NCBI RefSeq assembly: GCF_000374645.1
Contig: NZ_KB894824.1
Location: 1 to 38,302 of the forward strand
Direction of reading: 5' to 3'
From: Arhodomonas aquaeolei DSM 8974
Lineage (GTDB): Bacteria > Pseudomonadota > Gammaproteobacteria > Nitrococcales > Nitrococcaceae
Length of the DNA stretch: 38,302 nucleotides
Shown: positions 4,448 through 37,890 of the stretch, one piece after another
Layout of the letters: each line of letters starts with the position of its first letter
Numbering within the stretch: position 1 is the first letter of the stretch
Notes under the pieces: generated by a model
Seen by the model: the letters and a program-made list of their open reading frames with translations, nothing else
Database searches by the model: none
Told to the model about the DNA's origin: nothing
Translations under genes and position numbers: made by a program

Positions 4448-5416
4448 ATGCGTAAGTTCAGGCGCCTTACCCTCGCGGCGATCACGGTGTTCGTCGCCGG
4501 CGTGGCCGCCCTGCCGGCCCTGGCCCAGCAGACCCGGGTGACCTACAAGTCCGCCGCCGCCGGTACGGCCTACTACCAGATGGGCGTGGAGCTCTCCGAG
4601 GCCATCAAGGCCGGTACCGACGGCGCGGTTACCGTGACGCTGGAGGAGAGCCAGGGCTCGGTGCAGAACGTCATGGCGGTGATGCGCCGCGGTGGCAATT
4701 ACGTGTTCACCACGCCGCCGTCGCTGGTGACCAAGGCGATGGCGGGCAAGGGGCCGTTCGAGGGCCGGCCGGCCTCGGCGTTCGGCAAGATCCGCGGGCT
4801 GTTCCCGATTCCGGCGATCACCATGCACTGGGTGGTGAAGGGGGGCGATGGCGTCATCGGCCTGAAGGACCTCGCCGGTAAGCACATCCTCATCGGCCGC
4901 GGCAGCTTCGGGGCCCGGGAGGCGCAGCGCTACCTCGAGCTGTTCGAGCTCACCGACGACGTCCGCATTGCCGACGCGGATATCGGCAGTGGGCCGGACG
5001 CGCTCAAGAACGGCCAGATCGACGGCTTCGTCACCGCCAGCTCCTTCCCCACGCCCAACGTGATCGAGACCGCGGCGAGCCTGGACATCAGCCTGGTCTC
5101 GCTGACCCCGGAGCAGATCGAGCGCACCGGTGCGGCCCACCAGACCATACCGGCGGGCACCTACGCGGGCATCGACGAGGACGTGGAGACCACCTCCCTG
5201 CCGGTGATCGCCTACACCACCACGGGCATGGACGAGGAGACCGCCTACACGCTCACCCGCACCTTCTGGGAGCGCCGCGAGGCCATGGCCGACGAGTCCG
5301 GCTGGTGGGCGGGCATCACCCCGGAGATGATCGGCAATATGACCGGCAAGCTCCATCCGGGGGCGTTGCGTTACTACGACGAGGCCGGGATCGAGGTGCC
5401 GGAGCGGCTGCGCTGA
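4448..5416 (+). CDS. TRAP transporter substrate-binding protein, TAXI family
   Basis: A 322-residue periplasmic receptor. A Sec signal peptide is clear: basic MRKFRR, a hydrophobic core, and a cleavage site after ALPALA near residue 26. The mature start, TYKSAAAGTAYYQMGVELSEAI, is the typical TAXI opening. QGSVQNVMAVMRRG and DLAGKHILIGRGSFGAREAQRYLE are further family landmarks. TAXI proteins bind small acids such as glutamate or 2-oxoglutarate, but the ligand cannot be read from the sequence. The fused permease follows after 17 bases, so the two form one transporter operon. The ATG was chosen for the signal peptide and the GGGAGA ribosome site at 4437-4442. Confidence 0.93.
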   Translation: MRKFRRLTLAAITVFVAGVAALPALAQQTRVTYKSAAAGTAYYQMGVELSEAIKAGTDGAVTVTLEESQGSVQNVMAVMRRGGNYVFTTPPSLVTKAMAGKGPFEGRPASAFGKIRGLFPIPAITMHWVVKGGDGVIGLKDLAGKHILIGRGSFGAREAQRYLELFELTDDVRIADADIGSGPDALKNGQIDGFVTASSFPTPNVIETAASLDISLVSLTPEQIERTGAAHQTIPAGTYAGIDEDVETTSLPVIAYTTTGMDEETAYTLTRTFWERREAMADESGWWAGITPEMIGNMTGKLHPGALRYYDEAGIEVPERLR

Positions 5417-5433
5417 TCGGCTGACCGCCGGAA

Positions 5434-7233
5434 GTGGAGAACGACACGCAAGTCGCCGGCGGCGGGGTGCGGGCCGGGTGGATCGCCCTGGGGGCGGTCT
5501 CGGTGGCCTTCCACCTGGGGCTGATCTTCTACGGCCTCGCGCCCGCGCTCATCGCCCGGCCCATCCACATGGCCCTGGTGCTGCCGTGGGTCCTGGTGTA
5601 TGCGGCCTCGAACCGCCGCCAGCGCTGGAGCGGTTGGGTGCTCACGGTCGCCGGCGTGGCGGCCTGCGGTTATATCGTGCTCAACGAGTCCGCGTTGCTG
5701 GATCAGTACGGCTTCATCGAGGGGCCGTTCCAGATGGCGCTGGGCGTGTTCCTGCTGCTGCTGGCGCTGGAGACGGCCCGCCGCGCGATCGGCTGGCCGC
5801 TGCCCGCGGTGGCGGCGCTGGCGCTGCTCTATGCGGTGCTGGGGCACTATATCCCCGGGGCGTATGGGCATCCGGACCTGCCCCTGGGCAGCGTGGTGGG
5901 TGGGCTGACGATCGCCGAGGGCGGGCTCTGGGGCTCGCTCACCGGCGTGAGCGTGGGCGTGGTCGCGATCTTCGTGATCTTCGGCGCGGTGATCAACGCC
6001 GGCGAGGCCGGCCAGGGCTTCATGAACCTGGCGAGCGCGGTGGCCGGGCGCCTGCGCGGTGGCGCGGCGAAGGTGTCGGTGGTCTCCTCGGCGCTGCTCG
6101 GCTCGATATCCGGCTCCGCCTCGGCCAATGTGGCGTCGACGGGGTCGGTGACCATCCCCTCGATGATCCGCCTCGGCTATCCCCGCTCGCTGGCCGGCGC
6201 GGTGGAGGCGGTGGCCTCCTCGGGCGGCCAGATCATGCCGCCGCTGATGGGGGCGGGGGCGTTCGTGATGGTGGAGCTCACCGGCATCCCCTACACCCGC
6301 ATCATGGGGGCAGCGGTGCTGCCGGCACTGCTGTTCTTCGCGACCGTCTGGTTCGGCCTCAACGCCTTCGCCAGCCGTTACGACCTGCGCCCCCTGGCCG
6401 CCAGCGAGCGCCCCACCGGGCGGGCGCTGCTGATCACCTCGCTGTTCTTCGTCGTGCCCTTCGGGGTGCTGCTGGAGCGGATCTTCCATGGCGGCAACAC
6501 GCCGCAGTACGCGGCCAGCATCGCGATCTTCACCGCCGCGGCGCTACTGCTGTTCGACGCGCGGCTGCGTTTCTCGGTGACCGCATTCCTCCGCCGTCTC
6601 GGCGAGGCGCTGGTCCTGGCCGGCCGGCAGGTGGCCGTGATCGGCTCGATCATTCTCTGTGCCTCGCTGGTGATCGGTGTGCTCGGGATGACCGGGCTGG
6701 GCGTGAAGATCACCTCGGCGATACTGGCGCTGTCCGGCGACACCCTCTGGCCGGCGCTGGTGCTCACGGCGCTCGCCTGCCTGGCCCTGGGGATGGAGGT
6801 GCCCACGACGGCGGCCTATGTCATCTGCGTGTCGGTGGCCGGGCCGGCGCTGCACGACCTGGGCGTGGCGCCGCTGCTCGCGCACCTGTTCGTGTTCTGG
6901 TATGCGCTGCTTTCGACGATCACCCCGCCGGTCTGCGGCGGGGTGTTCATCGCCGCCGGGATGGCCGGCGAGAACTGGCTCCGCGTCGCCGTGCGCGCCA
7001 TGGCACTGGGCGTGGGGCTGTACCTCATCCCGCTGGCGATGGTGGCGAGCCCGGCGCTTCTGGCGCTGGTGGACACGCCGCTCGCCGCCCTGGCGGCGTT
7101 CCTGCGTATCGCCGTTGCCCTCGCCGCGGTGAGCTACGGCCTCATCGCGCGGCGGCCGCTGCCACTGCGGGGGCTCCTCCTGGCCGCCGGTCTGGCGCTG
7201 CTCTTCGTCTGGCCCGCCGTATGGCCCGCCTGA
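5434..7233 (+). CDS. TRAP transporter permease, fused small and large subunits
   Basis: A 599-residue polytopic inner-membrane protein, GTG start. The first ~170 residues form the four-helix DctQ-like part and the rest the DctM-like ion-coupled permease. Family landmarks in the large part are GSISGSASANVASTGSVTIP (about 227-246), EAVASSGGQIMPPLMGAGAF and the C-terminal STITPPVCGGVFIAAGMAGENW. Fusion of Q and M is the usual form in TAXI-type TRAP systems, which agrees with the receptor 17 bases upstream. It should take up an organic acid with a sodium or proton gradient. There is no metabolic gene beside it that would name the substrate. Confidence 0.94.
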   Translation: MENDTQVAGGGVRAGWIALGAVSVAFHLGLIFYGLAPALIARPIHMALVLPWVLVYAASNRRQRWSGWVLTVAGVAACGYIVLNESALLDQYGFIEGPFQMALGVFLLLLALETARRAIGWPLPAVAALALLYAVLGHYIPGAYGHPDLPLGSVVGGLTIAEGGLWGSLTGVSVGVVAIFVIFGAVINAGEAGQGFMNLASAVAGRLRGGAAKVSVVSSALLGSISGSASANVASTGSVTIPSMIRLGYPRSLAGAVEAVASSGGQIMPPLMGAGAFVMVELTGIPYTRIMGAAVLPALLFFATVWFGLNAFASRYDLRPLAASERPTGRALLITSLFFVVPFGVLLERIFHGGNTPQYAASIAIFTAAALLLFDARLRFSVTAFLRRLGEALVLAGRQVAVIGSIILCASLVIGVLGMTGLGVKITSAILALSGDTLWPALVLTALACLALGMEVPTTAAYVICVSVAGPALHDLGVAPLLAHLFVFWYALLSTITPPVCGGVFIAAGMAGENWLRVAVRAMALGVGLYLIPLAMVASPALLALVDTPLAALAAFLRIAVALAAVSYGLIARRPLPLRGLLLAAGLALLFVWPAVWPA

Positions 7234-22997: not shown

Positions 22998-23140
22998 GGC
23001 GGGGAGCGCACTTCGCCTACAAAGTAGTAATTGGAATAAATATTCATAAGCGGCCGGCCGCCCGTCCGGGCGGCGCTCCGGCAGACAGGGGCCGGCCGTA
23101 CCCGGAAGTCGTGTTGGAAGCCATTACAGGAGATACCACT

Positions 23141-24775
23141 ATGTCATCCTCAGGCGTAAGAACCGCCGTGGGCACCGTGCTCGTGGCGCTCGCCGCCGCG
23201 TTCACGGCGGCCCCGGTGTTCGCCGGTTTCGACGCCAAACCCGCGGAGACCATCAACGGTCGCCCGGTGAAGGCCTTTGTCAGCTCCGAGTGCGGCGGCT
23301 GCCACAACCCCAAGCGTACGGGCGCCACCGGCCCGAACATCACCCAGCAGCGCCTGCGCGAGGGCATCGGCGACGGCGAAGGGGGCTTCAAGACCTCCAA
23401 GATCACCGGCCGGCCGCTGACGCCGTTCAATGAGCAGGCAATCTTCATGACCGTCAAGCACGGCCGCACCGGGACATCCATGCCCGCCTGGGGCACGGAC
23501 TCCAATCCCATCGGCAAGGCGCTGTCCGACGCGGAGATCCGGGCGGTCACCGACTATCTCTGGAACAACGCCGCGCCCAAGCGCTTCTACTGGTCCCGGG
23601 AGAAGATGGAGGACTCCCTGGAGGTGCTCGTACCCAAGTCCGAGCAGCCGGCGGAGCCGACCCACGACCACCCGGTGGACAACCTCCTGCTCGCCACCGA
23701 GCGCGAGTACTTCAGCGTGGCCGTGATCGACGGTGACAGCTTCGAGGTGGTCGCCCATCTCAAGGCCGGTGCCCGCGCCCACGGCTACACCTTCAGCCCT
23801 GACGGGCGCTACGCCTACAACCTCGGCCGCGACGGCTGGCTGTACAAGTACGACCTCTACAGCCTCAAGCCGGTGCGTCGCATCCGCCTCGGCCTGGATG
23901 CCCGCGGGATCGCGATCTCGGACGACGGGCGCTACATCATGACCGGCATGTACATCCCGACCCAGGCGGTGATGGTGGATGCCGACACCCTGGAGCCGGT
24001 GAAGGTGATCGACACCCACGGCGTCGCCGCGATCACCGGCGGCAAGGTGGATTCGCGCATCTGCTCGGTGAACGACGTCAAGCCGAGCGTCGGTCCGTAC
24101 TTCCTGCTCGCGCTCAAGGAGGCGGGCCAGATCTGGCGGGTCAACTACGACAAGCCCGGCTTCCCCGTGAAGAAGGTGGGTAACGTCGGCAAGATCCTGC
24201 ACGACGGCTTCCTGCGTCCGGACAACAAGGTCTTCTTCCTCGCTTCCCAGAACTCCAATCACGTCGCCGCCCTGGACGTGGAGAGCATGGAGATCCTGGC
24301 CAAGATCGAGACCGGCACCAAGCCGCACCCGGGGCCGGGCGCGGTCTGGCGCGAGGACGGCGTGGAGTACGCGGCGACCCCGCACATCGGCGAGGGCAAG
24401 AACGTGATCTGGAACGACCACACCTTCGAGGTGGTCGGCGAGGTGCCCAGCGGCGGCCCGGGCCTGTTCGTGCGCGCCCGCGAGGACATGAAGTACGTGT
24501 GGTTCGACTCGGTCTTCCCGCCGGCGTCCAACGAGATCACCGTCCACGAGCGCAAGCCCCCGTTCAAGGTGGTCAAGCGCATCAACGAGGGCACGATGAC
24601 CCTGCACCCGGAGCCGGACGCCGACGGCAGCCACGTGTTCGTCAGCGACTGGAAGGAAGGCGTGATCCGGGTCTACGACGACGAGACGCTGGAGAAGGTC
24701 GCCACCATCACGGACGTGCGTACGCCCACCGGGATCTTCTCGGTGTCGCGGGCACACCACCACGAGGGCCACTGA
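23141..24775 (+). CDS. nirS: Cytochrome cd1 protein, probably nitrite reductase NirS
   Basis: A 544-residue periplasmic protein with a signal peptide (cleavage after VFA, near residue 28), a heme c domain (CGGCH, 51-55; likely Met114 in TSMPAWG) and an eight-bladed heme d1 propeller. The putative proximal d1 ligand is His214 (RAHGY). Two histidines, His354 in LHDGF and His396 in KPHPGPG, sit 42 residues apart, the same spacing as the two catalytic His of known NirS. The enzyme would reduce nitrite to nitric oxide. Sequences such as FSPDGRYAYNLGRDGWLYKYDLY and GPGLFVRAREDMKYVWFD are closer to NirN, so a NirN role (dihydro-d1 dehydrogenase) is the alternative. An AGGAGAT ribosome site at 23128 fixes the ATG over an upstream GTG. 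Confidence 0.8.
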   Translation: MSSSGVRTAVGTVLVALAAAFTAAPVFAGFDAKPAETINGRPVKAFVSSECGGCHNPKRTGATGPNITQQRLREGIGDGEGGFKTSKITGRPLTPFNEQAIFMTVKHGRTGTSMPAWGTDSNPIGKALSDAEIRAVTDYLWNNAAPKRFYWSREKMEDSLEVLVPKSEQPAEPTHDHPVDNLLLATEREYFSVAVIDGDSFEVVAHLKAGARAHGYTFSPDGRYAYNLGRDGWLYKYDLYSLKPVRRIRLGLDARGIAISDDGRYIMTGMYIPTQAVMVDADTLEPVKVIDTHGVAAITGGKVDSRICSVNDVKPSVGPYFLLALKEAGQIWRVNYDKPGFPVKKVGNVGKILHDGFLRPDNKVFFLASQNSNHVAALDVESMEILAKIETGTKPHPGPGAVWREDGVEYAATPHIGEGKNVIWNDHTFEVVGEVPSGGPGLFVRAREDMKYVWFDSVFPPASNEITVHERKPPFKVVKRINEGTMTLHPEPDADGSHVFVSDWKEGVIRVYDDETLEKVATITDVRTPTGIFSVSRAHHHEGH

Positions 24776-25217: not shown

Positions 25218-25299
25218 AAGCAGCCCCTGATCTATGCCTTATCCTGCCACAAATGCGCCGTCCTGAACCCATCCCCAGGGGGCGTGCGTGGAGGTTGCC

Positions 25300-26688
25300 A
25301 TGTCCGAGACCCTACAGATCGACCCGCAGATGCTCGAGCGCTACGACGTGACCGCCCCGCGGTATACGTCCTATCCGACGGCGCTCGCCTTCCACCCCGG
25401 CTGGGACGAGGCCGCCTACGTGGCCCACGTGCGCGCGCACCGCGCCCCGGACGAGCCCCTGTCGATGTATGTGCACGTGCCGTTCTGCCACTCGGCGTGC
25501 TTCTACTGCGCATGCAACCGGATCATCACCGCCAACCGCCGTCACGCCGAGCACTACCTGGAGCGGCTGATCCGCGAGATCCATGCCCAGGCGGCCCTGC
25601 TCGGCCCGCGGCCGCTGGCGCAGCTGCATTTCGGCGGCGGCACGCCCACCTACCTGGACGACGACCAGCTCGAGCGCCTGATGGGCGTGATCGGCGAGGC
25701 CTTTCCGTTCGCCCCGGTCTCCGAGCGGGAGTTCTCCATCGAGATCGACCCGCGCACGGTGGACCCGGCCCGCATGCGCCGGCTCCGGGAGATGGGCTTC
25801 TCAAGGGTGAGCCTGGGCGTGCAGGACTTCGACCCGGCGGTGCAGGCCGCCATCAACCGGATACAGTCCGCCGAGATGGTCTCGCAGGTGCTCGCCGCGG
25901 CCCGTGGCGAGGGCTTCACCTCCACCAACATGGACCTCATCTACGGTCTGCCGAAGCAGGACCGGGCGCGCTTCGACGCGACCCTGGAGCGGATCATCCG
26001 CATGCGTCCCGAGCGGTTGGCCATCTACAACTACGCCCACCTGCCCGAGCGCTTCAAGATGCAGCGCCAGATCGACGCCGATACGCTGCCGGGGCCCGAG
26101 GAGAAGCTGGGCATCTTCAACGACGCCATCCGCCGGCTCACGGAGGCGGGCTACGTCTACATCGGCATGGACCACTTCGCCCTGCCGGAGGACGAGCTCG
26201 CCCAGGCCCTGGCCGCCGATACCCTGCAGCGCAACTTCCAGGGCTATTCCACCCGGGGCGGACTGGATCTGGTGGGCGTGGGCTCCACCGCCATCGGCCA
26301 CATCGCCGGCGCTTACAGCCAGAATCACCACAATCTCGCGGCCTACAACGAGGCCATCGACGACGGCCGGCTCGCGGTCGCCAAGGGATACCGGCGTGAC
26401 GCCGACGACGAACTCCGTGCCGAGGTGATCGAGGCGGTGATGTGCCGCTCGCGGCTGGACTTCAACGACGTCTCCGCGCGCCACGGCATCGACTTCGCGG
26501 ATTACTTTGCCGACGCCCTCGCCGACCTGCGCCCCGCCGAGGCGGACGGGCTGGTGGTCATCGGCGATGACAGCCTGACCGTGACCCGCCAGGGGCGGCT
26601 GTTCCTGCGTCAGATCGCGATGCCGTTCGACGCCCATCGCCGGCGCGGCGAGTCCGACATCCTGCGGCGCTTCTCCCGCGCCATCTGA
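25300..26688 (+). CDS. hemN: HemN, oxygen-independent coproporphyrinogen III dehydrogenase
   Basis: A 462-residue radical SAM enzyme that converts coproporphyrinogen III to protoporphyrinogen IX without oxygen. The cluster motif CHSACFYCAC gives C63, C67, C70 and C72, the four-Cys HemN signature. HFGGGTPTYL, EIDPRTV, GVQDFDPAVQAAINRIQ and GMDHFALPEDEL are further HemN landmarks that separate it from HemW. The ATG at 25300 has GGAGG ahead; a GTG twelve bases upstream is the other option. It makes heme precursor when oxygen is low, matching the box and the nearby nir cluster. Confidence 0.97.
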   Translation: MSETLQIDPQMLERYDVTAPRYTSYPTALAFHPGWDEAAYVAHVRAHRAPDEPLSMYVHVPFCHSACFYCACNRIITANRRHAEHYLERLIREIHAQAALLGPRPLAQLHFGGGTPTYLDDDQLERLMGVIGEAFPFAPVSEREFSIEIDPRTVDPARMRRLREMGFSRVSLGVQDFDPAVQAAINRIQSAEMVSQVLAAARGEGFTSTNMDLIYGLPKQDRARFDATLERIIRMRPERLAIYNYAHLPERFKMQRQIDADTLPGPEEKLGIFNDAIRRLTEAGYVYIGMDHFALPEDELAQALAADTLQRNFQGYSTRGGLDLVGVGSTAIGHIAGAYSQNHHNLAAYNEAIDDGRLAVAKGYRRDADDELRAEVIEAVMCRSRLDFNDVSARHGIDFADYFADALADLRPAEADGLVVIGDDSLTVTRQGRLFLRQIAMPFDAHRRRGESDILRRFSRAI

Positions 26689-27738: not shown

Positions 27739-28635
27739 TCAGCCGGCGTCGTCTCCGCGCAGGAACTCCAGGATGCTGGAGAAATCCTTCCTGCCGTTGC
27801 CCTGGGCGCTGTGGGTCGTGTAGAGGCTGCGCGCAAGCGCCCCCATGGGGGTGGCGGTGCCGCTGTTGACCGCCATGTTCATGGCGAGCCCCAGGTCCTT
27901 GGCGATGAGGTCCACCATGAACCCCGGCTGGTAGCCGTTGGAGGCCGGGGCGTTCTCCATTACGCCCGGGTAGGGGTTGTAGACCTGCAGCGCCCAGTTG
28001 TTGCCGGAGCTCGCCTTCATGATCTCCGAGGCCACGGCCGGGTCCAGGCCGTGGGCCCTGGCCATGTTCAGCGCCTCCGAGGTGCCGATCATGAGCACGC
28101 CGAGCAGCATGTTGTTGCACATCTTGCCCACCTGACCGGAGCCGCTCGGGCCGGCATGGAAGACCGCCTTGCCCATGACGTCGAGCACCGGCCGGGCCTG
28201 TTCCACCGCGGCGGCCTCGCCGCCGCAGATGAAGGTGAGCGTCCCGGCACGGGCGCCGCCCACGCCGCCGGAGACCGGGGCGTCCACGAACGCCAGTCCC
28301 GCCGCCGCGGCACTCTCGGCGACACCGCGGGCCTCCTCCGCGGCGATGGTGGAGCAGTCCACCAGGAGGGTGTCGCGGGAGACGCGCGCGATCAGCCCGT
28401 CGTCCCCCTCGTAGACCTGACGGACGTGGCGTCCGGCCGGGAGCATGGTGATGACGATCTCGGCACCGTCGGCGGCGGCCACGGCGGTCTCCGCCTTCGC
28501 CGCGCCGGCCTCCACCAGGGCGCTCACCGATTCCGGCACCAGGTCGAAGACCGTGACCTCGTGGCCGGCATTGACGAGGTTCGTGGCCATGGGGGCACCC
28601 ATGTTGCCCAGGCCGATGAATGCGATCCGTGACAT
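27739..28635 (-). CDS. mmsB: 3-hydroxyisobutyrate dehydrogenase
   Basis: A 298-residue NAD-dependent beta-hydroxyacid dehydrogenase of the valine degradation pathway, turning 3-hydroxyisobutyrate into methylmalonate semialdehyde. The nucleotide fold is IGLGNMGAPMA (7-17); the substrate motif is FVDAPVSGGVGGARAGTL; the catalytic Lys is K171 in GKMCNNML; and the GKDLGLAM-like segment is AKDLGLAMNMA. The full-length C-terminus is NGRKDFSSIL. The GGAGGAGAGGG ribosome site before the ATG is strong. A likely LiuR operator lies just upstream. No other valine-pathway gene is in the window. Confidence 0.92.
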   Translation of the reverse strand: MSRIAFIGLGNMGAPMATNLVNAGHEVTVFDLVPESVSALVEAGAAKAETAVAAADGAEIVITMLPAGRHVRQVYEGDDGLIARVSRDTLLVDCSTIAAEEARGVAESAAAAGLAFVDAPVSGGVGGARAGTLTFICGGEAAAVEQARPVLDVMGKAVFHAGPSGSGQVGKMCNNMLLGVLMIGTSEALNMARAHGLDPAVASEIMKASSGNNWALQVYNPYPGVMENAPASNGYQPGFMVDLIAKDLGLAMNMAVNSGTATPMGALARSLYTTHSAQGNGRKDFSSILEFLRGDDAG

Positions 28636-28863: not shown

Positions 28864-29727
28864 ATGAATGATCAGCCCCGCAGCGACACCCGCCAGGTCA
28901 CGCGCCTGGCCCGCGGCATGCCCGCCAGCGACGGCGCGGGCGTGCGGTTGACCCGCGTCATCGGCACCCCCTACCTGGATGCCGTCGACCCCTTTCTGAT
29001 GCTCGACGAGTTCCGCTCCGATAACGCGGACGACTACATCGCCGGCTTTCCGGAGCACCCGCACCGCGGCTTTGAGACGGTGACCTACATGCTCGCGGGC
29101 CGCATGCGCCACGGCGACAACCAGGGCAACAGCGGCGTGCTCGAGCCCGGCGGACTCCAGTGGATGACCGCCGGACGCGGCATCGTGCATTCGGAGATGC
29201 CGGAGCAGAGCGACGGGCTCATGTGGGGCTTCCAGCTCTGGGTGAATCTCCCGGCCGGGCGCAAGATGACGGCACCGCGCTACCAGGACATTCCGCCCGC
29301 GGAGGTCCCCGTGATCATCCCCGCCACCGGTGTGCGGCTGCGGGTGCTTGCCGGCACCGTGGAGGGCGTCGAGGGGCCGGTGCGCGGTATCGACGTCGAC
29401 CCCCTGGCCGTGGACATCGCCCTCGATGCCGGTGCCGCTCACCGGCTCACCCTGCCGGCGGACCACGCGGCCTTCGTGTATTGCTTCGAGGGGGGGCTGA
29501 GCGTCGGTGAGGGCGATGCCGCCCGGGCCGTGGCCCGCGGCGAGCTGGCGGTGTTGAGCGAGGGGGGCTCGGTGCGGATCGGGGCGGGCGGCGATGCCGG
29601 GGGCCGCGGGCTGCTGGTCGCGGGGCGTCCCCTGCGTGAGCCGGTGGCGCGGCACGGGCCGTTCGTGATGAACAGCCGCGAGGAGCTGATGCAGGCGTTT
29701 GCCGACTACCGCGATGGCCGCCTGTGA
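28864..29727 (+). CDS. Pirin-family protein
   Basis: A 287-residue bicupin. The N-terminal cupin carries the metal-ligand signature HPHRGFETVTYMLAGRMRHGD (about residues 60-80) and GRGIVHSEMPE with the final His and Glu; GLQWMTAGRGIVHSE and FQLWVNLPAGRKM are diagnostic of pirins. Bacterial pirins are mostly unassigned; some act as quercetinases or modulate metabolic enzymes. The GGAGCGGAGAG ribosome site is good. It stands alone between mmsB and coxG, both gaps being about 90-230 bases, and a functional tie to either is not shown. Confidence 0.93.
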   Translation: MNDQPRSDTRQVTRLARGMPASDGAGVRLTRVIGTPYLDAVDPFLMLDEFRSDNADDYIAGFPEHPHRGFETVTYMLAGRMRHGDNQGNSGVLEPGGLQWMTAGRGIVHSEMPEQSDGLMWGFQLWVNLPAGRKMTAPRYQDIPPAEVPVIIPATGVRLRVLAGTVEGVEGPVRGIDVDPLAVDIALDAGAAHRLTLPADHAAFVYCFEGGLSVGEGDAARAVARGELAVLSEGGSVRIGAGGDAGGRGLLVAGRPLREPVARHGPFVMNSREELMQAFADYRDGRL

Positions 29728-29814: not shown

Positions 29815-30423
29815 ATGGAGATGAACCAGGAGCGCGAGCTCGCGTTCGACCGCCAGACCGTGTGGGATGCCCTTAACGACCCGGAGGCGCTGCGCGTGTG
29901 CATCCCGGGCTGCCAGGGCCTGGAGATGCTGGAGACCGACCGCTACGAGGCGGTGGTCCAGACCAAGATCGGTCCGGTCAAGGCCCGTTTCCGGGGCCAC
30001 GTCTCCATCGAGGATGCCGATCCCCCGCAGGGCTACCGCCTGCGCTTCGAGGGCCAGGGCGGTGCCGCCGGCTTCGCCAAGGGTGGGGCCTCGGTCCGGC
30101 TGGAGGAGATGAATCCCGAGGGCACGCGACTCGCCTACGATGTCGAGGCCACGGTGGGCGGCAAGCTCGCCCAGGTGGGCTCGCGCATCGTCAACGGCGC
30201 CGCCCGCAAGCTCGCCGACGAGTTCTTCGACAACCTCGGGGCCTACCTGCGCGGTGAGCCCGTGGGCGAGCCGGCGCCGGCCGAGGCCTCCGGCTCTTCC
30301 GCCGCTGGCAGTGGCGATGCCCCGGCGGCGGAGCCCCCGGCGAGCGCGGACGACACCGGCGAGGCGAGTGCCGGCAAGAAGAAAGGGGGCTGGCGTTTCT
30401 GGCGCCGGGATTCGTCCGGTTAG
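29815..30423 (+). CDS. coxG: CoxG, SRPBCC-family protein of the cox operon
   Basis: A 202-residue protein. Residues 1-~150 form the CoxG SRPBCC lipid-binding domain: [36 protein letters not shown]-like [17 protein letters not shown], and the late [26 protein letters not shown] proline/alanine-rich linker follows, ending in a basic and aromatic tail ([11 protein letters not shown]) that could bind the inner face of the membrane. CoxG proteins anchor molybdenum hydroxylases to the membrane, and quinone transfer has been reported for such proteins in CO oxidisers. It is the first gene of the operon; coxS follows 150 bases later. Confidence 0.9.
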
Positions 30424-30572: not shown

Positions 30573-31028
30573 ATGAACGTATCGCTCACCGTCAACGGCC
30601 AGGCGGTCACCCGGGACGTGGACCCGCGGACCACCCTGGTGGAGCTGCTGCGCAACCACCTCTCGCTCACTGGCACCCACGTCGGCTGCGACACCGGCCA
30701 GTGCGGCGCCTGCACGGTGCACCTGGACGGCCGTGCGGTGAAGGCGTGCAGCGTCCTCGCCGGGCAGGCGCAGGGGGCGCAGGTCACTACCATCGAGGGC
30801 CTCGCCGACGGCGGCCTGCACCCCATGCAGTCCGCCTTCCGCGAATGCCACGGGCTGCAGTGCGGCTTCTGCACGCCGGGGATGGTCATGGCCGCGGTGG
30901 ACCTGGTGAAGCGTCACCCGGATCCGGACGAGGCCACCATCCGCGACGGGCTCGAGGGCAATTACTGCCGCTGCACGGGCTACCACAACATCGTGCGCGC
31001 GGTGCGCCGCGCCGCCGAGCAGATGTGA
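30573..31028 (+). CDS. coxS: CoxS-type [2Fe-2S] small subunit of a molybdenum hydroxylase
   Basis: A 151-residue protein. The plant-ferredoxin-type cluster is [15 protein letters not shown] (about 38-52) and the second cluster C-terminal [11 protein letters not shown] with [10 protein letters not shown] near 97-130. It passes electrons from the Mo centre to FAD. There is no signal peptide, so the enzyme is cytosolic. A GGAGGAG ribosome site precedes the ATG. It is followed by coxL after ten bases and then coxM, the S-L-M order of form II enzymes. Confidence 0.95.
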
Positions 31029-31038
31029 GGGGGGAGCG

Positions 31039-33423
31039 ATGAGCGATTCCAGCATCGGCCAGCCGGTTCACCGCCGCGAGGACGAGCGCTTCCTCCGCGG
31101 GCAGGGGCGCTACACCGACGACATCCACCTCCCCGGCGAGGCCCACGCCTATTTCCTGCGCTCGCCCCATGCCCACGCGCGCATCCGCGGCATCGGGACC
31201 GCCGCGGCGGCGCAGGCGGACGGCGTGGTGGCGGTGCTCACCGGCGAGGACCTCGCCGCCGACGGTGTCGGCGGGCTGCCCTGCGGCTGGCAGATCACCG
31301 ATGTCGACGGCAATCCCATGAAGGAGCCGGCGCACCCGCCGCTCGCGCAGGGCAAGGTCCGTTACGTGGGCGACGCCGTGGCGGTGGTCATCGCCGAGAG
31401 CTACTGGCAGGCCAAGGACGCCTCCGAGCTCATCGAGGTGGACTACGAGCCGCTGGAGGCCGTCGCCTCCGCCGCCCGCGCCCTGACGGACGGGGCACCG
31501 CGGGTGCACGACGAGTTCGACGACAACTGCTGCTATGTCTGGGAGATCGGCGAGGGTGGCGAGGTGGACGCCGCCTTCGATAGCGCCGCGCACACCGTGT
31601 CGGTGGACATCACCAACAACCGGTTGATCCCCAACGCCATCGAGCCCCGGGCGGCGATCGCGCAGTACACCCCGGGCGAGGAGCGCTATACCCTCTACAC
31701 CACCAGCCAGAACCCCCACGTCACGCGGCTGCTGATGAGCGCGTTCGTGCTCCAGATTCCCGAGCACAAGCTCCGGGTGGTGGCGCCGGACGTCGGCGGC
31801 GGGTTCGGCTCCAAGATCTTCCACTACGCCGAGGAGGCGGTGCTCACCTGGGCGAGCCGCCGGGTCGCCCGGCCCGTGCGCTGGACCGCCGAGCGCTCGG
31901 AGTCCTTCACCACCGACGCCCACGGCCGGGACCACGTCACCCGAGCGGAGATGGCGCTGGACGGCGACGGGCATTTCCAGGCGATGCGGGTGCGCACCAC
32001 CGCGAACATGGGGGCGTATCTCTCCACCTTCGCGCCGTCGGTGCCCACCATCCTCTACGCCACCCTGCTCGCCGGGCAGTACCGCACGCCGAAGATCCAC
32101 TGCCGGGTCACCGCGGCGTTCACCCACACCACGCCGGTGGACGCCTACCGCGGTGCGGGCCGGCCCGAGGCCACCTACGTGGTGGAGCGCCTGGTGGACG
32201 CCTGTGGCCGGGCCCTGGGGATCGATCAGGCGGAGATCCGGCGGCGGAACTTCATCCCGAAGGACGCCTTCCCCTACCAGACGCCGGTGGCGCTCAACTA
32301 CGACGTCGGCGACTACGAGGCGACCCTGGACGCGGCCATGGAGATGGCCGACGTCGCCGGCTTCGAGCAGCGCCGTGCCGAGGCCCGCTCGCGGGGCCGC
32401 TACCGCGGCATCGGCTACTCCACCTACATCGAGGCCTGCGGCCTGGCGCCGTCCAACATCGCCGGTGCCCTCGGTGCCCGCGCCGGGCTCTACGAGGCCG
32501 GCGAGGTGCGGCTGCACCCCACCGGCAAGGTCACCGTGTTCACCGGCTCCCACAGCCACGGTCAGGGCCACGAGACCACCTTCGCCCAGGTCGTCTCCGA
32601 CCGCCTCGGCATCGGCATCGAGGACGTGGAGATCGTCCACGGCGATACCGACCGCGTACCCTTCGGCATGGGCACCTACGGCTCGCGCTCGCTGGCGGTC
32701 GGCGGCACGGCGATCATGCGCGCCCTCGACAAGGTGATCGACAAGAGCCGCAAGATCGCCGCGCACATGCTGGAGGTGGACGCCGCGGACGTGGAGTACG
32801 ACGATCACGGCACCTTCCGCGTGGCCGGCACCGACCGCACGCTGTCCATGCCGGAGATCGCCTTCTCCGCCTACGTCCCGCACAACTACCCGCTGGAGAC
32901 GCTGGAGCCGGGGCTGGACGAGATGGCGTTCTACGACCCGACCAACTTCACCTATCCCGCGGGCAGCCACATCTGCGAGGTCGAGGTGGACCCCGAGACC
33001 GGGCGTGTGGAGATCGTCAACTTCACCGCGGTGGACGACTTCGGCAACGTCATCAACCCGATGATCGTGGAGGGGCAGGTCCACGGCGGGCTCGCCCAGG
33101 GGATCGGTCAGGCGCTGCTGGAGGCGTGCGTCTACGACGACGCCAGCGGCCAGCTCGTCACCGGCACCTACATGGACTACACCATGCCCCGGGCGGACGA
33201 CCTGCCGAGCTTCCGCGTCGACACCCGCAACACCCCCTGCACCCACAACCCCCTCGGGGTGAAGGGCTGCGGCGAGGCCGGGGCCATCGGCGCGCCGCCG
33301 GCGGTGGTGAACGCCGTGATCGACGCCCTCGGGCCGCTCGGCGTGCACGACATCGGCATGCCGCTCACGCCGGTGCGCGTGTGGCAGGCCATCCAGCAGG
33401 CCGGCGGCAGCCGCGCGGCGTAG
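31039..33423 (+). CDS. coxL: Form II CoxL-type molybdenum hydroxylase large subunit
   Basis: A 794-residue Mo-pterin subunit of the xanthine oxidase family. GGGFGSKIF (near 253-261) is a molybdopterin-binding loop, and GCGEAG (743-748) holds the catalytic Glu746. The active-site loop reads AYRGAGR (369-375), the form II signature; true Mo-Cu CO dehydrogenases have AYRCSFR with the Cys that holds copper, which is absent here. Thus the enzyme should not be called a CO dehydrogenase without proof. It oxidises some unknown substrate with water as the oxygen source; cofactor MCD is likely since mocA is in the operon. Confidence 0.95.
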
Positions 33424-33469: not shown

Positions 33470-34267
33470 ATGTACGCATTCGAATTCCACCGCGCCAGCG
33501 ACATCGATGATGCCCTGAAACAGCTCGGCGCGGACGACGAGGCCCAGCTCATCGCCGGCGGCCAGACGCTGCTGCAGAGCCTGCGCCAGCGTCTGGCGAT
33601 GCCCTCGACCCTGGTCGATCTGGGCGGGCTCACCGAGCTCGCTGGCATCGAGCGCGACGGCGACGCCCTCAACATCGGCGCCATGACCCGGCACGCGGAC
33701 GTCGCCGGCGCCGCCGCCGTGCACGACGCCATCCCCGCGCTCGCGGTGCTCGCCGGCGGTATCGGCGATGCCCAGGTCCGCAACATGGGTACCCTGGGCG
33801 GCTCCATCGCCAACAACGACCCGGCGGCGGATTACCCGGCGGGCCTGGTGGGGCTGGGTGCCACGGTGGTAACCACCGAGCGCGAGATCGCCGCGGACGA
33901 CTTCTTCACCGGGATGTTCGAGACGGCCCTGGGCGAGCACGAGCTCATCCTCGGGGTGCGTTTCCCCGTGCCCCGGCGGGCCGGCTACGTGAAGTTTCCG
34001 CAGCCCGCATCGCGGTACGTACTGGTGAGCGTGATGGTCGCGGAGACGGACGAGGGCGTGCGCGTCGCCGTCTCCGGCGCGGGTCCCTGCGTGTTCCGCG
34101 TCCCGGAAATGGAGCGGGCGCTCGCGGCGGATTTCCGTCCCGAGGCCCTGGACGGCATCCGCGTGGACCCGGGCGGGCTCAACGAGGACCTCCATGCCAC
34201 GCCGGAGTACCGTGCCCACCTCGTGGGCGTGATCGCGCGGCGTGCGGTAGCGGCGGCGCTGTCGTAG
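33470..34267 (+). CDS. coxM: CoxM-type FAD subunit
   Basis: A 265-residue FAD-binding subunit of the same enzyme. It begins FEFHRASDIDDALKQLG and has the FAD loops AGGQTLLQSLRQRL (about 28-41) and TLGGSIANNDPAADYPA (about 108-124); the C-terminal domain GYVKFPQPASRYVLVSVM is the CO_deh_flav_C part. It accepts electrons from CoxS and passes them on. The ATG at 33470 has GGAGA before it, giving the usual start. The order S-L-M is complete. Confidence 0.94.
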   Translation: MYAFEFHRASDIDDALKQLGADDEAQLIAGGQTLLQSLRQRLAMPSTLVDLGGLTELAGIERDGDALNIGAMTRHADVAGAAAVHDAIPALAVLAGGIGDAQVRNMGTLGGSIANNDPAADYPAGLVGLGATVVTTEREIAADDFFTGMFETALGEHELILGVRFPVPRRAGYVKFPQPASRYVLVSVMVAETDEGVRVAVSGAGPCVFRVPEMERALAADFRPEALDGIRVDPGGLNEDLHATPEYRAHLVGVIARRAVAAALS

Positions 34268-34412: not shown

Positions 34413-35328
<916 letters not shown>

Positions 35329-35345
<17 letters not shown>

Positions 35346-36555
35346 GCCCCGCGGACGGCTGGCCGCCAACGTCGCCCATTTCGTGCGCCTGCTCCGCGCC
35401 GCCGGTCTGCCGCTGGGCCCGGACAGCACCCTGGACGCCATCGAGGCCGTGCGCACCGCCGGCGTGGGCGACCGCGCCGACCTGCGCGCGGCGCTGGCCG
35501 CGGTGCTGGTGCGCCGGCGCAGCGACCTGCCCGTCTTCGAGCAGGCGTTCGAGCTGTTCTGGCAGCATCCCCGGCTCACCCAGCGTGCCCTACAGCGCCT
35601 CGCCGCCCGCGCCGCCGGCGGTGGCACGACATCGCCGCGCCGGCCGCCGCCGCGGCGGATCGCCGACGCGCTCGCGCCGGAGGCGGACACGGGCGCCGGC
35701 GGGCGGGAGGCCGGCGATACCGAGGAGGGGCTGGCGACGCTCACCTGGACGGACCGGGAGCGGCTTCAGCACCGGGACTTCGAGAGCCTGAGCGCCGAGG
35801 AGCTTGCCCGGGCCCATCGCCTGATCCGCGACATGGTCCCGCCGGCGCCGGCGCGGCCCACCCGGCGTTACCGGCCGGACCCCCGGGGGACGCGTGTCGA
35901 TCCGAGGGCAAGCCTCAGGGCCGGGCTACGCGGGGGCTCGCCGGGTATCGAGCTCCGCCACCGCCAGCGCCAGTGGCGTGAGCCGCCACTGGTGGTACTC
36001 TGCGATATCTCGGGGTCCATGAGTCAGTATGCGCGGACCTTCCTGCATTTCCTACATGCGCTGATGCACTCGCGCGAGCGTGTGGAGGTGCTGCTGTTCG
36101 GCACCCGGCTGACCCGGGTGACGCGGCTGCTCCGCGCCCGGGACGTGGACGAGGCCCTGGCGGCCGTGGGCGGTGCCGCGCCGGACTGGTCCGGCGGCAC
36201 GCGCATCGGGGCCATGCTCGGTGCCTTCAACCGTCGCTGGGCGCGGCGGCTGCTGGGGCAGGGCGCGGTGGTCGTGCTCCTGAGCGACGGGCTGGACCGG
36301 GATCCCGAGGGCGGGCTTGCCCGGGAGGCGGCGCGGCTGCACCGGCTCTCCCGGCGACTCATCTGGGTCAACCCGCTGCTGCGCTGGTCCGGCTTCGAGG
36401 CCCGCGCCGGCGGGGTGCGGGCACTGCTGCCCCACGTGGACGAATTCCGCCCGGTGCACAGCCTCCACAGCCTGGAGCAGCTGGCCCGGGCCCTCGGCGG
36501 GAGATACGGCGATGGCGAGCGGGCCGATCTGCGGGCTGCTGCTGGCGGGGGGTGA
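35329..36555 (+). CDS. coxE: CoxE, von Willebrand factor A domain protein
   Basis: A 408-residue VWA protein, partner of the MoxR ATPase CoxD in maturation. The N-terminal half is the CoxE-specific helical part (HFVRLLRAAGLPLGPDSTLDAIEAV). A low-complexity Pro/Arg stretch leads to the VWA domain; the MIDAS site is DISGSMS (226-232), complete with Asp and two Ser, followed by VLLFGTRLTRVT and GGTRIG. It begins inside coxD and overlaps mocA by 44 bases, so translation is tightly coupled. Confidence 0.93.
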
Positions 36556-37111
36556 GGGCCGGCGTTTCGGCGGGGACAAGCTCATGGCGGCGCTGGCGGA
36601 CGGCACGCCCGTGGCCGTCGCCACCGCCCGGGCGCTGGCCGCCGGCTGCGACCGGGTCGTCGCCGTGACCCGGCCGGACCGTGATCCCCTGGTGAAGGCG
36701 CTGCGCGGTGCCGGCTGCGAGGTGGTCGTCACCGCCGCATGCCGGCGTGGCATGGGGGCGAGCCTGGCCGCCGCGGTCGCGGCCTCGGGGGCGGCCGCGG
36801 GATGGCTGGTGCTCCCGGCGGACATGCCCGCCGTGGCCGGCACCACGGTCGCCGCCGTCGCGGCGGCCCTGCGTCGTGGTAGCCTCATTGCAAGACCCGA
36901 GCTCGACGGTCGCCCCGGTCATCCGGTCGGCTTCTCCGCCGAGCTGCGCGAGGCGCTCGCCGCCCTGGACGGCGATACCGGGGCCCGCGGTGTGGTGGCG
37001 CGCCATCGAGACGCCGTCGCCTGCCTGGCGGTGGACGACCCCGGTATCCTCGCGGATATAGACACGCCGGCGGACCTCGTCCGTCTCGCCGGAGGAGGAA
37101 ACGGGACGTGA
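36512..37111 (+). CDS. mocA: MocA-like molybdopterin cytidylyltransferase
   Basis: A 199-residue nucleotidyltransferase. LAGGEGRRFGGDK (11-23) is the nucleotide-binding loop. LPADMPAV near 105-112 and GHPVGF near 138-143 are the MocA-type motifs (MobA for GTP differs here), so it most likely makes MCD from CTP and Mo-pterin. It suits a molybdenum hydroxylase of this family. It starts within coxE (44-base overlap) and overlaps xdhC by four bases (GTGA). Specificity for CTP over GTP is inferred from the motifs, not tested. Confidence 0.85.
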   Translation: MASGPICGLLLAGGEGRRFGGDKLMAALADGTPVAVATARALAAGCDRVVAVTRPDRDPLVKALRGAGCEVVVTAACRRGMGASLAAAVAASGAAAGWLVLPADMPAVAGTTVAAVAAALRRGSLIARPELDGRPGHPVGFSAELREALAALDGDTGARGVVARHRDAVACLAVDDPGILADIDTPADLVRLAGGGNGT

Positions 37112-37890
37112 GCGACGACTGGCTGGAGATACTGCGCGAGCTGCGCGAACGCGGCGTGGGCCATGCCCTCGCCACGGTGATCGAGACCCGCGGCAGCGCC
37201 TCGGCGAAGACCGGTTCCAAGGCGGTGATCGACGCCGAGGGCCGGCTGCTGCACGGCTGGGTGGGCGGCGGCTGTGCCGAGTCCACCGTCTGCCAGACCG
37301 CCGTGGCCGCCCTGCGCGAGGGCGAGGGCCGGGTGGTGGACGTCAATCTCGACGACGAGGTCCTGGGCGTGGGCATGCCCTGCGGCGGGCACATGCGCGT
37401 GTTCGTGGAGCCGGTGCTGCCGCGTCCCGGGCTGTGGATCGTCGGCCACGGCCGGGTCGCCGAGACCCTGTGCGCCTTCGGCGACCGCTTGGGTCTGGCC
37501 GTGCGGGTGAGCGACCCTGGCGCCACCGCCGAGCATTTCCCCGAGGCCGCCGAGCGCATTACCGATGACGCGGGTTACCAGCGCCTGCGCCCGGCACCGG
37601 GAGACTTCGTCGTCATCGCCACCCAGCACAAGGGGGATCACCTCTCCCTGGACCGGGTGCTCGAGTCCGATGCCGGCTACATCGCCCTCATCGCCAGCCG
37701 CAAGCGTGCCGGACTGGTGATGGACTACCTCCGCGAGCGCGGCCGGGGCGAGGAGGACATCGCCCGCGTGCGCTCGCCGGCGGGCCTCGATATTGGCGCC
37801 CGCACCCCCGAGGAGATCGCCCTGAGCGTCATCGCCGAGATCGTGCAGCACCGCCGCGGCGGCTCCGGCGAGTCTCTGGCGTCGCCGTAG
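37108..37890 (+). CDS. xdhC: XdhC/CoxI-family molybdenum-cofactor maturation protein
   Basis: A 260-residue cytosolic protein. GWVGGGCAEST (about 50-60) is the XdhC_CoxI N-terminal signature with its Cys; the C-terminal half is the XdhC Rossmann domain (LWIVGHGRVAETLCAFGDRLGLAVRVSDP). Such proteins bind the Mo cofactor, add the terminal sulfur ligand with a partner and insert it in the apo-enzyme. The GTG start overlaps the mocA stop; a GGAGGAGGAA ribosome site precedes. It is the last clear gene of the cox operon, and may also be known as CoxF or CoxI. Confidence 0.93.
   Translation: MSDDWLEILRELRERGVGHALATVIETRGSASAKTGSKAVIDAEGRLLHGWVGGGCAESTVCQTAVAALREGEGRVVDVNLDDEVLGVGMPCGGHMRVFVEPVLPRPGLWIVGHGRVAETLCAFGDRLGLAVRVSDPGATAEHFPEAAERITDDAGYQRLRPAPGDFVVIATQHKGDHLSLDRVLESDAGYIALIASRKRAGLVMDYLRERGRGEEDIARVRSPAGLDIGARTPEEIALSVIAEIVQHRRGGSGESLASP

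Follow-up and report, generated by a model that had tools for sequence, protein, structure and literature searches.

A form II cox operon of Arhodomonas aquaeolei and its putative copper-free molybdenum hydroxylase

Gene content of the locus

The window analyzed here, a stretch of 38,302 nucleotides that represents an entire contig of Arhodomonas aquaeolei, carries eight cox-cluster genes, all on the forward strand and each backed by a Pfam match, which together form an ordinary and intact form II operon of a kind already known. The first of them, coxG (29815..30423), encodes an SRPBCC/CoxG-family protein proposed to act as a membrane dock (PF06240, 109.7 bits with a cut-off of 22.2) that shares 51% identity over 142 residues with the CoxG of O. 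carboxidovorans OM5. Three subunit genes follow: coxS (30573..31028) for the small subunit with two [2Fe-2S] domains (PF00111 and PF01799); coxL (31039..33423), a single intact open frame of 794 amino acids, for the molybdenum-cofactor large subunit (PF01315, PF02738 and PF20256), which the tree places in the form II clade; and coxM (33470..34267) for the FAD subunit (PF00941). Downstream lie coxD (34413..35345), encoding a MoxR-like AAA ATPase (PF07728; 51% identity to OM5 CoxD over 285 residues), and coxE (35329..36555), encoding its VWA-domain partner (PF05762, VWA_CoxE, 221.2 bits; 33% identity to OM5 CoxE). The cluster ends with a mocA-like gene (36512..37111) for a MobA-like NTP transferase, a cofactor nucleotidyltransferase (PF12804, 121.4 bits; TIGR03310, 110.3 bits, under its cut-off of 186), and an xdhC-like gene (37108..37890), whose product has an XdhC/CoxI Pfam match and, by comparison with OM5 and by its loop, a CoxF-type backbone with an XdhC-type PCGG loop.

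The likely starts of five genes were picked by the analysts (coxM 33470, coxD 34413, coxE 35329, mocA 36512 and xdhC 37108, the last a GTG), and with these starts coxD overlaps coxE, coxE overlaps mocA and mocA overlaps xdhC; 412 bases of the contig are left beyond xdhC. None of the NCBIfam models matching the eight proteins scored above its cut-off, and CoxG matches no model. The subunit genes stand in the order S-L-M, whereas the form I operon of OM5 has M-S-L. This order, the AYRGAGR motif of the large subunit and its position in a clade sister to form I uphold the preliminary description of the locus as a form II cox operon.

Several other genes of the window were also recognized. Upstream of the operon lie a gene for a cytochrome cd1-type protein (PF02239 plus a cytochrome c domain; 23111-24772) and then a HemN-like gene identified by eye (25288-26688), which suggests that denitrification-type heme d1 genes are located nearby. 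A 3-hydroxyisobutyrate dehydrogenase gene (27739-28635; TIGR01692 over cut-off) is on the strand opposite to the cox genes, and beside the other loci of the form II family a weak homologue (33%) occurs at L130 only. A pirin gene (28864-29727) ends about 90 bases before coxG, with a distant pirin-like gene (29%) in the same place at L133. A TAXI-type binding protein and a TRAP permease (PF16868 and PF06808) are encoded at 4448-7230, 26 kb from coxL; TAXI/TRAP homologues directly flank coxSLM at three family loci (L066, L101 and L112), and L111 has only the binding protein in that position.

The large subunit, its clade and its pocket

The preliminary description had read AYRGAGR at residues 369-375 of CoxL and concluded that the copper-binding Cys of CO dehydrogenases is lacking, and both statements are borne out. 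The loop is encoded at 32143..32163 on the forward strand, and in an alignment with 10 form I CoxL rows its Gly372 stands in the column of the copper-ligand Cys of AYRCSFR (one form I row reads AYACSFR). The form I loop (GGVAYRCSFRVTE) exceeds that of the window by two residues. AYRGAGR is kept in 71/71 form II family rows of the alignment; these rows were admitted by this motif and by identity, and no aligned row with at least 57% identity lacks the motif. The CO dehydrogenase equivalog model TIGR02416 gives the window CoxL 672 bits, below its cut-off of 991, and the form I controls L138 and L139 score 1620 and 1272 bits, respectively. The protein carries xanthine oxidase family domains, with fold matches of Z 33-41, and its solved relative with the top sequence score is the CO dehydrogenase 8uem (649 bits, compared with 503 bits for quinoline oxidoreductase), a ranking that would count against a copper-free, non-CO reading. 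A fold search of the predicted CoxL returned closely placed family matches; the predicted structure was set aside as a source for the pocket (mean pLDDT 74.7, pTM 0.71, pocket loops with pLDDT below 50).

A 103-row tree, built by a quick search with SH-aLRT as the only support measure and with the motif columns retained, joins the 10 form I rows in one clade with a support of 100. The window CoxL lies outside it, in a 76-row clade (support 93) that is sister to form I, with 75 rows reading AYRGAGR and a single row reading PYRGAGR. A phylogenetic position inside form I had been named as one result that would speak against the reading, which thus survives this check. The large subunit of quinoline 2-oxidoreductase (QorL), a single row on a long branch, branches outside the two forms. 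The search of the Arhodomonas genome revealed no form I, the OM5 CoxL query giving one match with E ≤1e-100, the window CoxL itself. Relatives with at least 58% identity occur in at least 82 of the 397 genomes sampled from the phylum (own genome excluded; counted from the listed rows with two candidates scored per genome, hence a lower bound), below which the identities drop to 51% or less. Orthologues at 78-80% are present in other genomes of the same order; among named relatives, Variovorax sp. WS11, further Burkholderiales, one Rhodospirillales genome, Saprospiraceae, a Kapaibacterium and a KSB1 genome reach 60-80%, and an Azospirillum lipoferum plasmid has a relative at 68%. Form II coxL is very common, and homology surveys can count it as a CO oxidation gene (PMC13203968, accessible text).

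Thirty alignment columns separate the family from form I: at least 95% of the 71 family rows agree on one residue there, and at least 9 of the 10 form I rows show a different state. The changes from form I to the family, with numbering anchored on C388, include C388 to G372, S389 to A373, F390 to G374, G280 to E265 and Q528 to H507, and the form I Cys that follows ET (position 220 by the anchored count) is R204 in the family. Replacement of Cys388, Ser389 and Phe390 by Gly, Ala and Gly is seen in 71/71 family rows, as is a stretch with G83, W84 and G91 that has no counterpart in form I. Gln224 (71/71 family rows) is presumably the Mo-site Gln of the xanthine oxidase family, and the column of Glu746 (codon 33274..33276, forward strand), with Glu in 70/71 family and 10/10 form I rows, is the one that we take to hold the catalytic Glu. 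This conservation of the pocket across phyla suggests that the family may share one substrate. Four cysteines of CoxL are also typical of the family, namely C82 (67/71), C467 (70/71), C734 (67/71) and C744 (59/71); the corresponding form I columns contain Thr, Val (Thr in one row), Ser and Val.

Maturation genes, copper loading and probable membrane docking

The product of the window xdhC gene scores 138 bits against CoxF of O. carboxidovorans OM5 and 72 bits against OM5 CoxI. The loop M107CPSHGTM is the copper site proposed for OM5 CoxF (PMC4240915, available text). At that place the window protein reads MPCGGHM, with the PCGG loop encoded at 37378..37389 (forward strand), and it contains no RGD. 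Across 18 form I loops (loci L138, L068, L151-L154, L155-L164, L167 and L168), the OM5 motif MCPSHGTM reduces to C-x-S-x-G-[TS]: Cys, Ser, Gly and then Thr or Ser are kept in 18/18, and Met107 and His are not kept.

A form I CoxF and OM5 CoxL were used as queries in 47 genomes (44 carriers of the form II family and three with form I only). Form I is present in 13 of these genomes, and a CoxF with the C-x-S-x-G loop adjoins it in 12 of the 13; the same type was found at 6/6 plasmid form I loci examined. By comparison, such a CoxF occurs in 0/34 form II-only genomes among matches of at least 63 bits, the range in which loops were checked (Fisher p 2.5e-10 for 12/13 vs 0/34, kinship ignored), and PCGG is the loop in each of the five CoxF matches above 100 bits in these genomes (the window, G003, G035 and two in G192). 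The Arhodomonas genome has no C-x-S-x-G CoxF in that range, its second match scoring 61 bits. The CoxF rule is imperfect, as genome G369 carries a form I CoxL (L216) with 69% identity to that of OM5, its best CoxF match scores 40 bits, and no CoxF-type gene lies in the 20 kb around this coxL. At the form I loci of three genomes (G026, G031 and G054), the C-x-S-x-G and PCGG types stand side by side, so the PCGG protein accompanies form I too.

Maturation genes were counted in 62 form II family loci, giving coxD in 38, coxE in 35, coxG in 35, xdhC in 31 and mocA in 13, all of which are lower bounds because detection relied on similarity to the window genes and contig ends cut some loci. One locus (L024), with a coxL broken up into several frames, was left out, and L009 and L056, apparently one contig, were counted only as L056. 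XdhC-family genes at most other family loci score best against the CoxI type, and that of the window combines the CoxF backbone with PCGG. In two close relatives, a NifU_N (IscU-like) protein that might supply sulfur or clusters is encoded after xdhC (L059, 16460-16879; L056, 3342-3770).

The full set of G, S, L, M, D, E, mocA and xdhC claimed in the preliminary description is thus confirmed by Pfam as far as the genes go, but the C-x-S-x-G copper loader is missing from it and the "xdhC" product is nearer to CoxF. The paradox that this claim implied, a complete CO dehydrogenase maturation set in an operon without a copper site, is not supported, since D, E and G often accompany form II enzymes and the C-x-S-x-G CoxF, the component that goes with the copper site, is absent. 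Judged from gene content, copper loading is missing in the window operon. The presence of CoxD and CoxE where there is neither a copper ligand nor a copper loader suggests that the task of these two proteins may not depend on copper, a point of relevance to the published model of maturation. Such a task would agree with the role of CoxD in sulfuration and would go beyond the proposal that CoxE and CoxF serve Cu, both as given in the available text of PMC4240915. The CoxF loop offers a marker of operons built for copper loading that is independent of the CoxL motif.

The CoxG of the window matches chains 2pcs and 8uds, the latter named CoxG, and its C-terminal tail (30376..30420, forward strand) is classified as basic-aromatic, a class into which 0.286 of its shuffles also fall. 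The tails of the 35 CoxG proteins from family loci include 14 transmembrane helices and 14 basic-aromatic tails, with 5 proteins having none and 2 another kind; an anchoring tail, whether helix or basic-aromatic, is therefore present in 28/35. The basic-aromatic assignment partly reflects composition (14/16 observed vs 5.9/16 expected after shuffling). Both kinds occur within the six-member clade of the window, basic-aromatic in the window, L058 and L059 and helical in L056, L057 and L010, and on the tree the tails switch at least five times among the 28 tailed rows, or show 11 changes when a third state is kept. These two anchoring kinds of tail make it probable that CoxG serves to dock the enzyme to the membrane. 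The earlier suggestion, drawn from the basic-aromatic tail, of a putative electron passage to membrane quinone is supported, as far as docking is concerned, by the family match and the tails, but this tail represents only one of two anchoring solutions. In the literature available in part, OM5 without CoxG grows more slowly on CO but still grows (PMC4240915), form I CoxG is described as a quinone-binding protein that passes electrons (work of Kropp et al. 2025, reported in PMC13240472), and glycerol-3-phosphate dehydrogenase of Sulfolobus is anchored by a CoxG-like protein that is dispensable for quinone reduction (PMC11962113).

Proposed function and relation to known systems

The accessible text of PMC6794299, PMC13203968 and PMC13240472 treats the substrate of form II enzymes as unknown, in line with the preliminary description, which had called it an open question. 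The form II cox of Rubrivivax has no confirmed function according to the part of PMC4257681 available, studies disagree on form II activity (PMC11771112, in part), and no form II substrate was named in the literature found, most subscription papers being outside reach. In Rubrivivax gelatinosus S1, the coxSLM complex (pCOD, putative CO dehydrogenase) is reported in the available text of PMC10434068 to be expressed and redox-active: it reduces NBT in gels, is lost in a coxL mutant, and shows no response to any of four aldehydes (formaldehyde, acetaldehyde, butyraldehyde and octanal). Both Cu and Cd inhibit it, and it is slightly more active in CO2-enriched medium, in which the authors see a hint of CO/CO2 chemistry. 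The published Rubrivivax coxL reverse primer reads YMDYTM, which occurs in 28/71 family rows and 0/10 form I rows; the exact primer was not found in 147 loci, and the forward primer matches the end of coxS at L023. The YMDYTM primer and the S-L-M-D-E order place the Rubrivivax complex in the form II family, a placement made from primer and gene order and not from the pCOD sequence. The Rubrivivax gene coxX, whose function is not known there, appears to stand where coxG stands at L011 and L104. The coxL mutant and the gel assay provide an existing handle for a substrate search.

Conserved neighbors were rejected as a guide to the substrate, as outside the cox genes no gene is widely recurrent in the 62 loci (shadow-frame clusters ignored, a minority of the unnamed neighbors scanned against families). 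Clusters found in 4 to 15 loci include ABC transporter parts, TAXI/TRAP transporters and PQQ alcohol dehydrogenases. Some of these ABC transporter parts resemble molybdate/tungstate uptake systems, judged by eye.

Since both the copper Cys and the copper loader are lacking, the enzyme most likely oxidizes a compound other than CO. The operon is best read as encoding a copper-free form II molybdenum hydroxylase, a sister of CO dehydrogenase whose physiological substrate would not be CO, and we assign this reading a probability of about 0.7. It is drawn from what the sequences show: a three-subunit architecture without a Cu ligand, a genome search that turned up no C-x-S-x-G CoxF, the clade of CoxL, a conserved pattern in the pocket and the types of tail on CoxG. 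In the proposed mechanism, MocA would make the dinucleotide form of the molybdenum cofactor, and CoxD, CoxE and the PCGG-type XdhC/CoxF protein would be responsible for loading both the cofactor and the Mo=S sulfur; a Mo=S ligand and a dinucleotide cofactor are suggested by the presence of mocA, xdhC, coxD and coxE. CoxL would oxidize a small organic substrate by the chemistry usual for xanthine oxidases, through attack by Mo-OH, with Glu746 as the base and hydride transfer to Mo=S. Electrons would then pass from the CoxS [2Fe-2S] clusters to the CoxM FAD and on to membrane quinone, with CoxG docking the enzyme there.

The substrate may be an aldehyde or a similar carbonyl other than the four simple ones tried in Rubrivivax, in which case the enzyme would be an aldehyde oxidoreductase that supplies the quinone pool with electrons, acting for instance downstream of a PQQ alcohol dehydrogenase; we regard this as a possibility with less than even odds. 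On a Pseudosulfitobacter plasmid, SLM lies inside a cluster with PQQ alcohol dehydrogenase, pedF, pqqABCDE and CoxG, and across the 44 carriers 3/34 PQQ alcohol dehydrogenase genes are within 12 kb of a family coxL vs 0.19 expected (Poisson P 0.001, kinship ignored), with further cases at L014 and on that plasmid (locus L067). The four simple aldehydes had no effect on the Rubrivivax complex (PMC10434068, in part), which speaks against this reading. The window CoxL falls less short of the glyceraldehyde dehydrogenase model (674/790 bits) than of the CO dehydrogenase model, but no family member examined reaches the cut-off of the former, and form I also scores high on it (558 and 660 bits), so the model says little. 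As a general answer, the link to PQQ alcohol dehydrogenase was rejected, an enzyme over cut-off being absent in 25/44 carriers, including the Arhodomonas genome.

Hydroxylation of an N-heterocycle, as performed by quinoline, nicotine-pathway or 3-hydroxypyridine dehydrogenases, is considered unlikely. QorL, at 38% identity, ranks with the nearest solved relatives, its loop AYRGVGF shares the AYRG start, and R204 and E265 are common to QorL and the window CoxL, but its long branch lies outside the group of form I and form II, and no recurrent ring-degradation genes were found beside the 62 loci, whose unnamed neighbors were annotated in part. Moreover, Ala373 occupies the position aligned with Phe914 of bovine xanthine oxidase, which we take to be the stacking residue. 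The remaining odds on the substrate fall to other small organic compounds.

Still less probable is a real CO dehydrogenase, perhaps slow or of low affinity, in which Cu is bound otherwise or is not needed. In its favor, and against the non-CO reading, stand two form II-only Kyrpidia strains that grow on CO and gave no form I match in their genomes; the authors place the Kyrpidia CoxL outside the BMS clade, and a purified CO-oxidizing enzyme of Aeropyrum pernix is tentatively assigned to form II (PMC7248562, available text). The sister position of form II and form I and their common D, E and G genes would also fit, as would the slight rise in activity of the Rubrivivax complex in CO2-enriched medium and the four family cysteines C82, C467, C734 and C744, which are near pocket segments and for which no function is claimed. 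Against this stand the missing Cu-ligand Cys, Phe390 and C-x-S-x-G CoxF, the inhibition of the Rubrivivax complex by Cu (PMC10434068, in part), and form II-only isolates often without CO consumption, as cited in the accessible text of PMC13203968 and PMC11771112. A decaying duplicate without function is hardly credible, given that no supporting point was found, the overlapping genes are intact, the catalytic residues are near-invariant, orthologues at 78-80% persist in the same order, and a Rubrivivax family member is expressed (PMC10434068, in part).

An extension of the copper-free hydroxylase reading, which we consider rather doubtful, would make the form II family one enzyme with one conserved non-CO substrate, a so far unrecognized respiratory electron donor in about one-fifth of Pseudomonadota and some Bacteroidota; copper loading would hinge on a switch of CoxF from PCGG to C-x-S-x-G, and CoxD and CoxE would serve the Mo=S step and not copper. 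Beyond the preliminary description, the present analysis contributes a division by copper loader, the alternation of CoxG anchors and the Rubrivivax link, with no priority claimed for the CoxF-loop distribution or the CoxG tails.

Among known systems, form II coxSLM operons, including that of pCOD of R. gelatinosus S1 (PMC10434068, in part), share with the window the AYRGAGR motif, the S-L-M order and the D and E genes, features of the family at large, with pCOD linked to it through primer and gene order; the window differs in placing coxG first and in using a CoxF-backbone PCGG protein. The form I Mo-Cu CO dehydrogenases of O. carboxidovorans and M. smegmatis have the three subunits, CoxD, CoxE and CoxG in common with it (the window CoxL has 37% identity to OM5 CoxL and 42% in structural alignment with 8uem), but are distinguished by the M-S-L order, an AYxCSFR loop longer by two residues, the C-x-S-x-G CoxF and a separate clade. 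Quinoline 2-oxidoreductase (QorMSL) resembles the window enzyme in its xanthine-oxidase family fold, 38% identity and R204 plus E265, whereas it falls outside the clade of form I and form II as a single long-branch row. The glyceraldehyde dehydrogenase of Sulfolobales (NF041018-NF041020, 4zoh) has the S-L-M subunit types and 36% identity (to 4zoh), but the three subunit models remain under cut-off (674/790, 192/350 and 219/290 bits). Finally, in Sulfolobus acidocaldarius it is a CoxG-like protein that brings a soluble respiratory dehydrogenase to the membrane; the glycerol-3-phosphate dehydrogenase concerned is unrelated, and the system provides a precedent that CoxG is not tied to CO (PMC11962113, available text).
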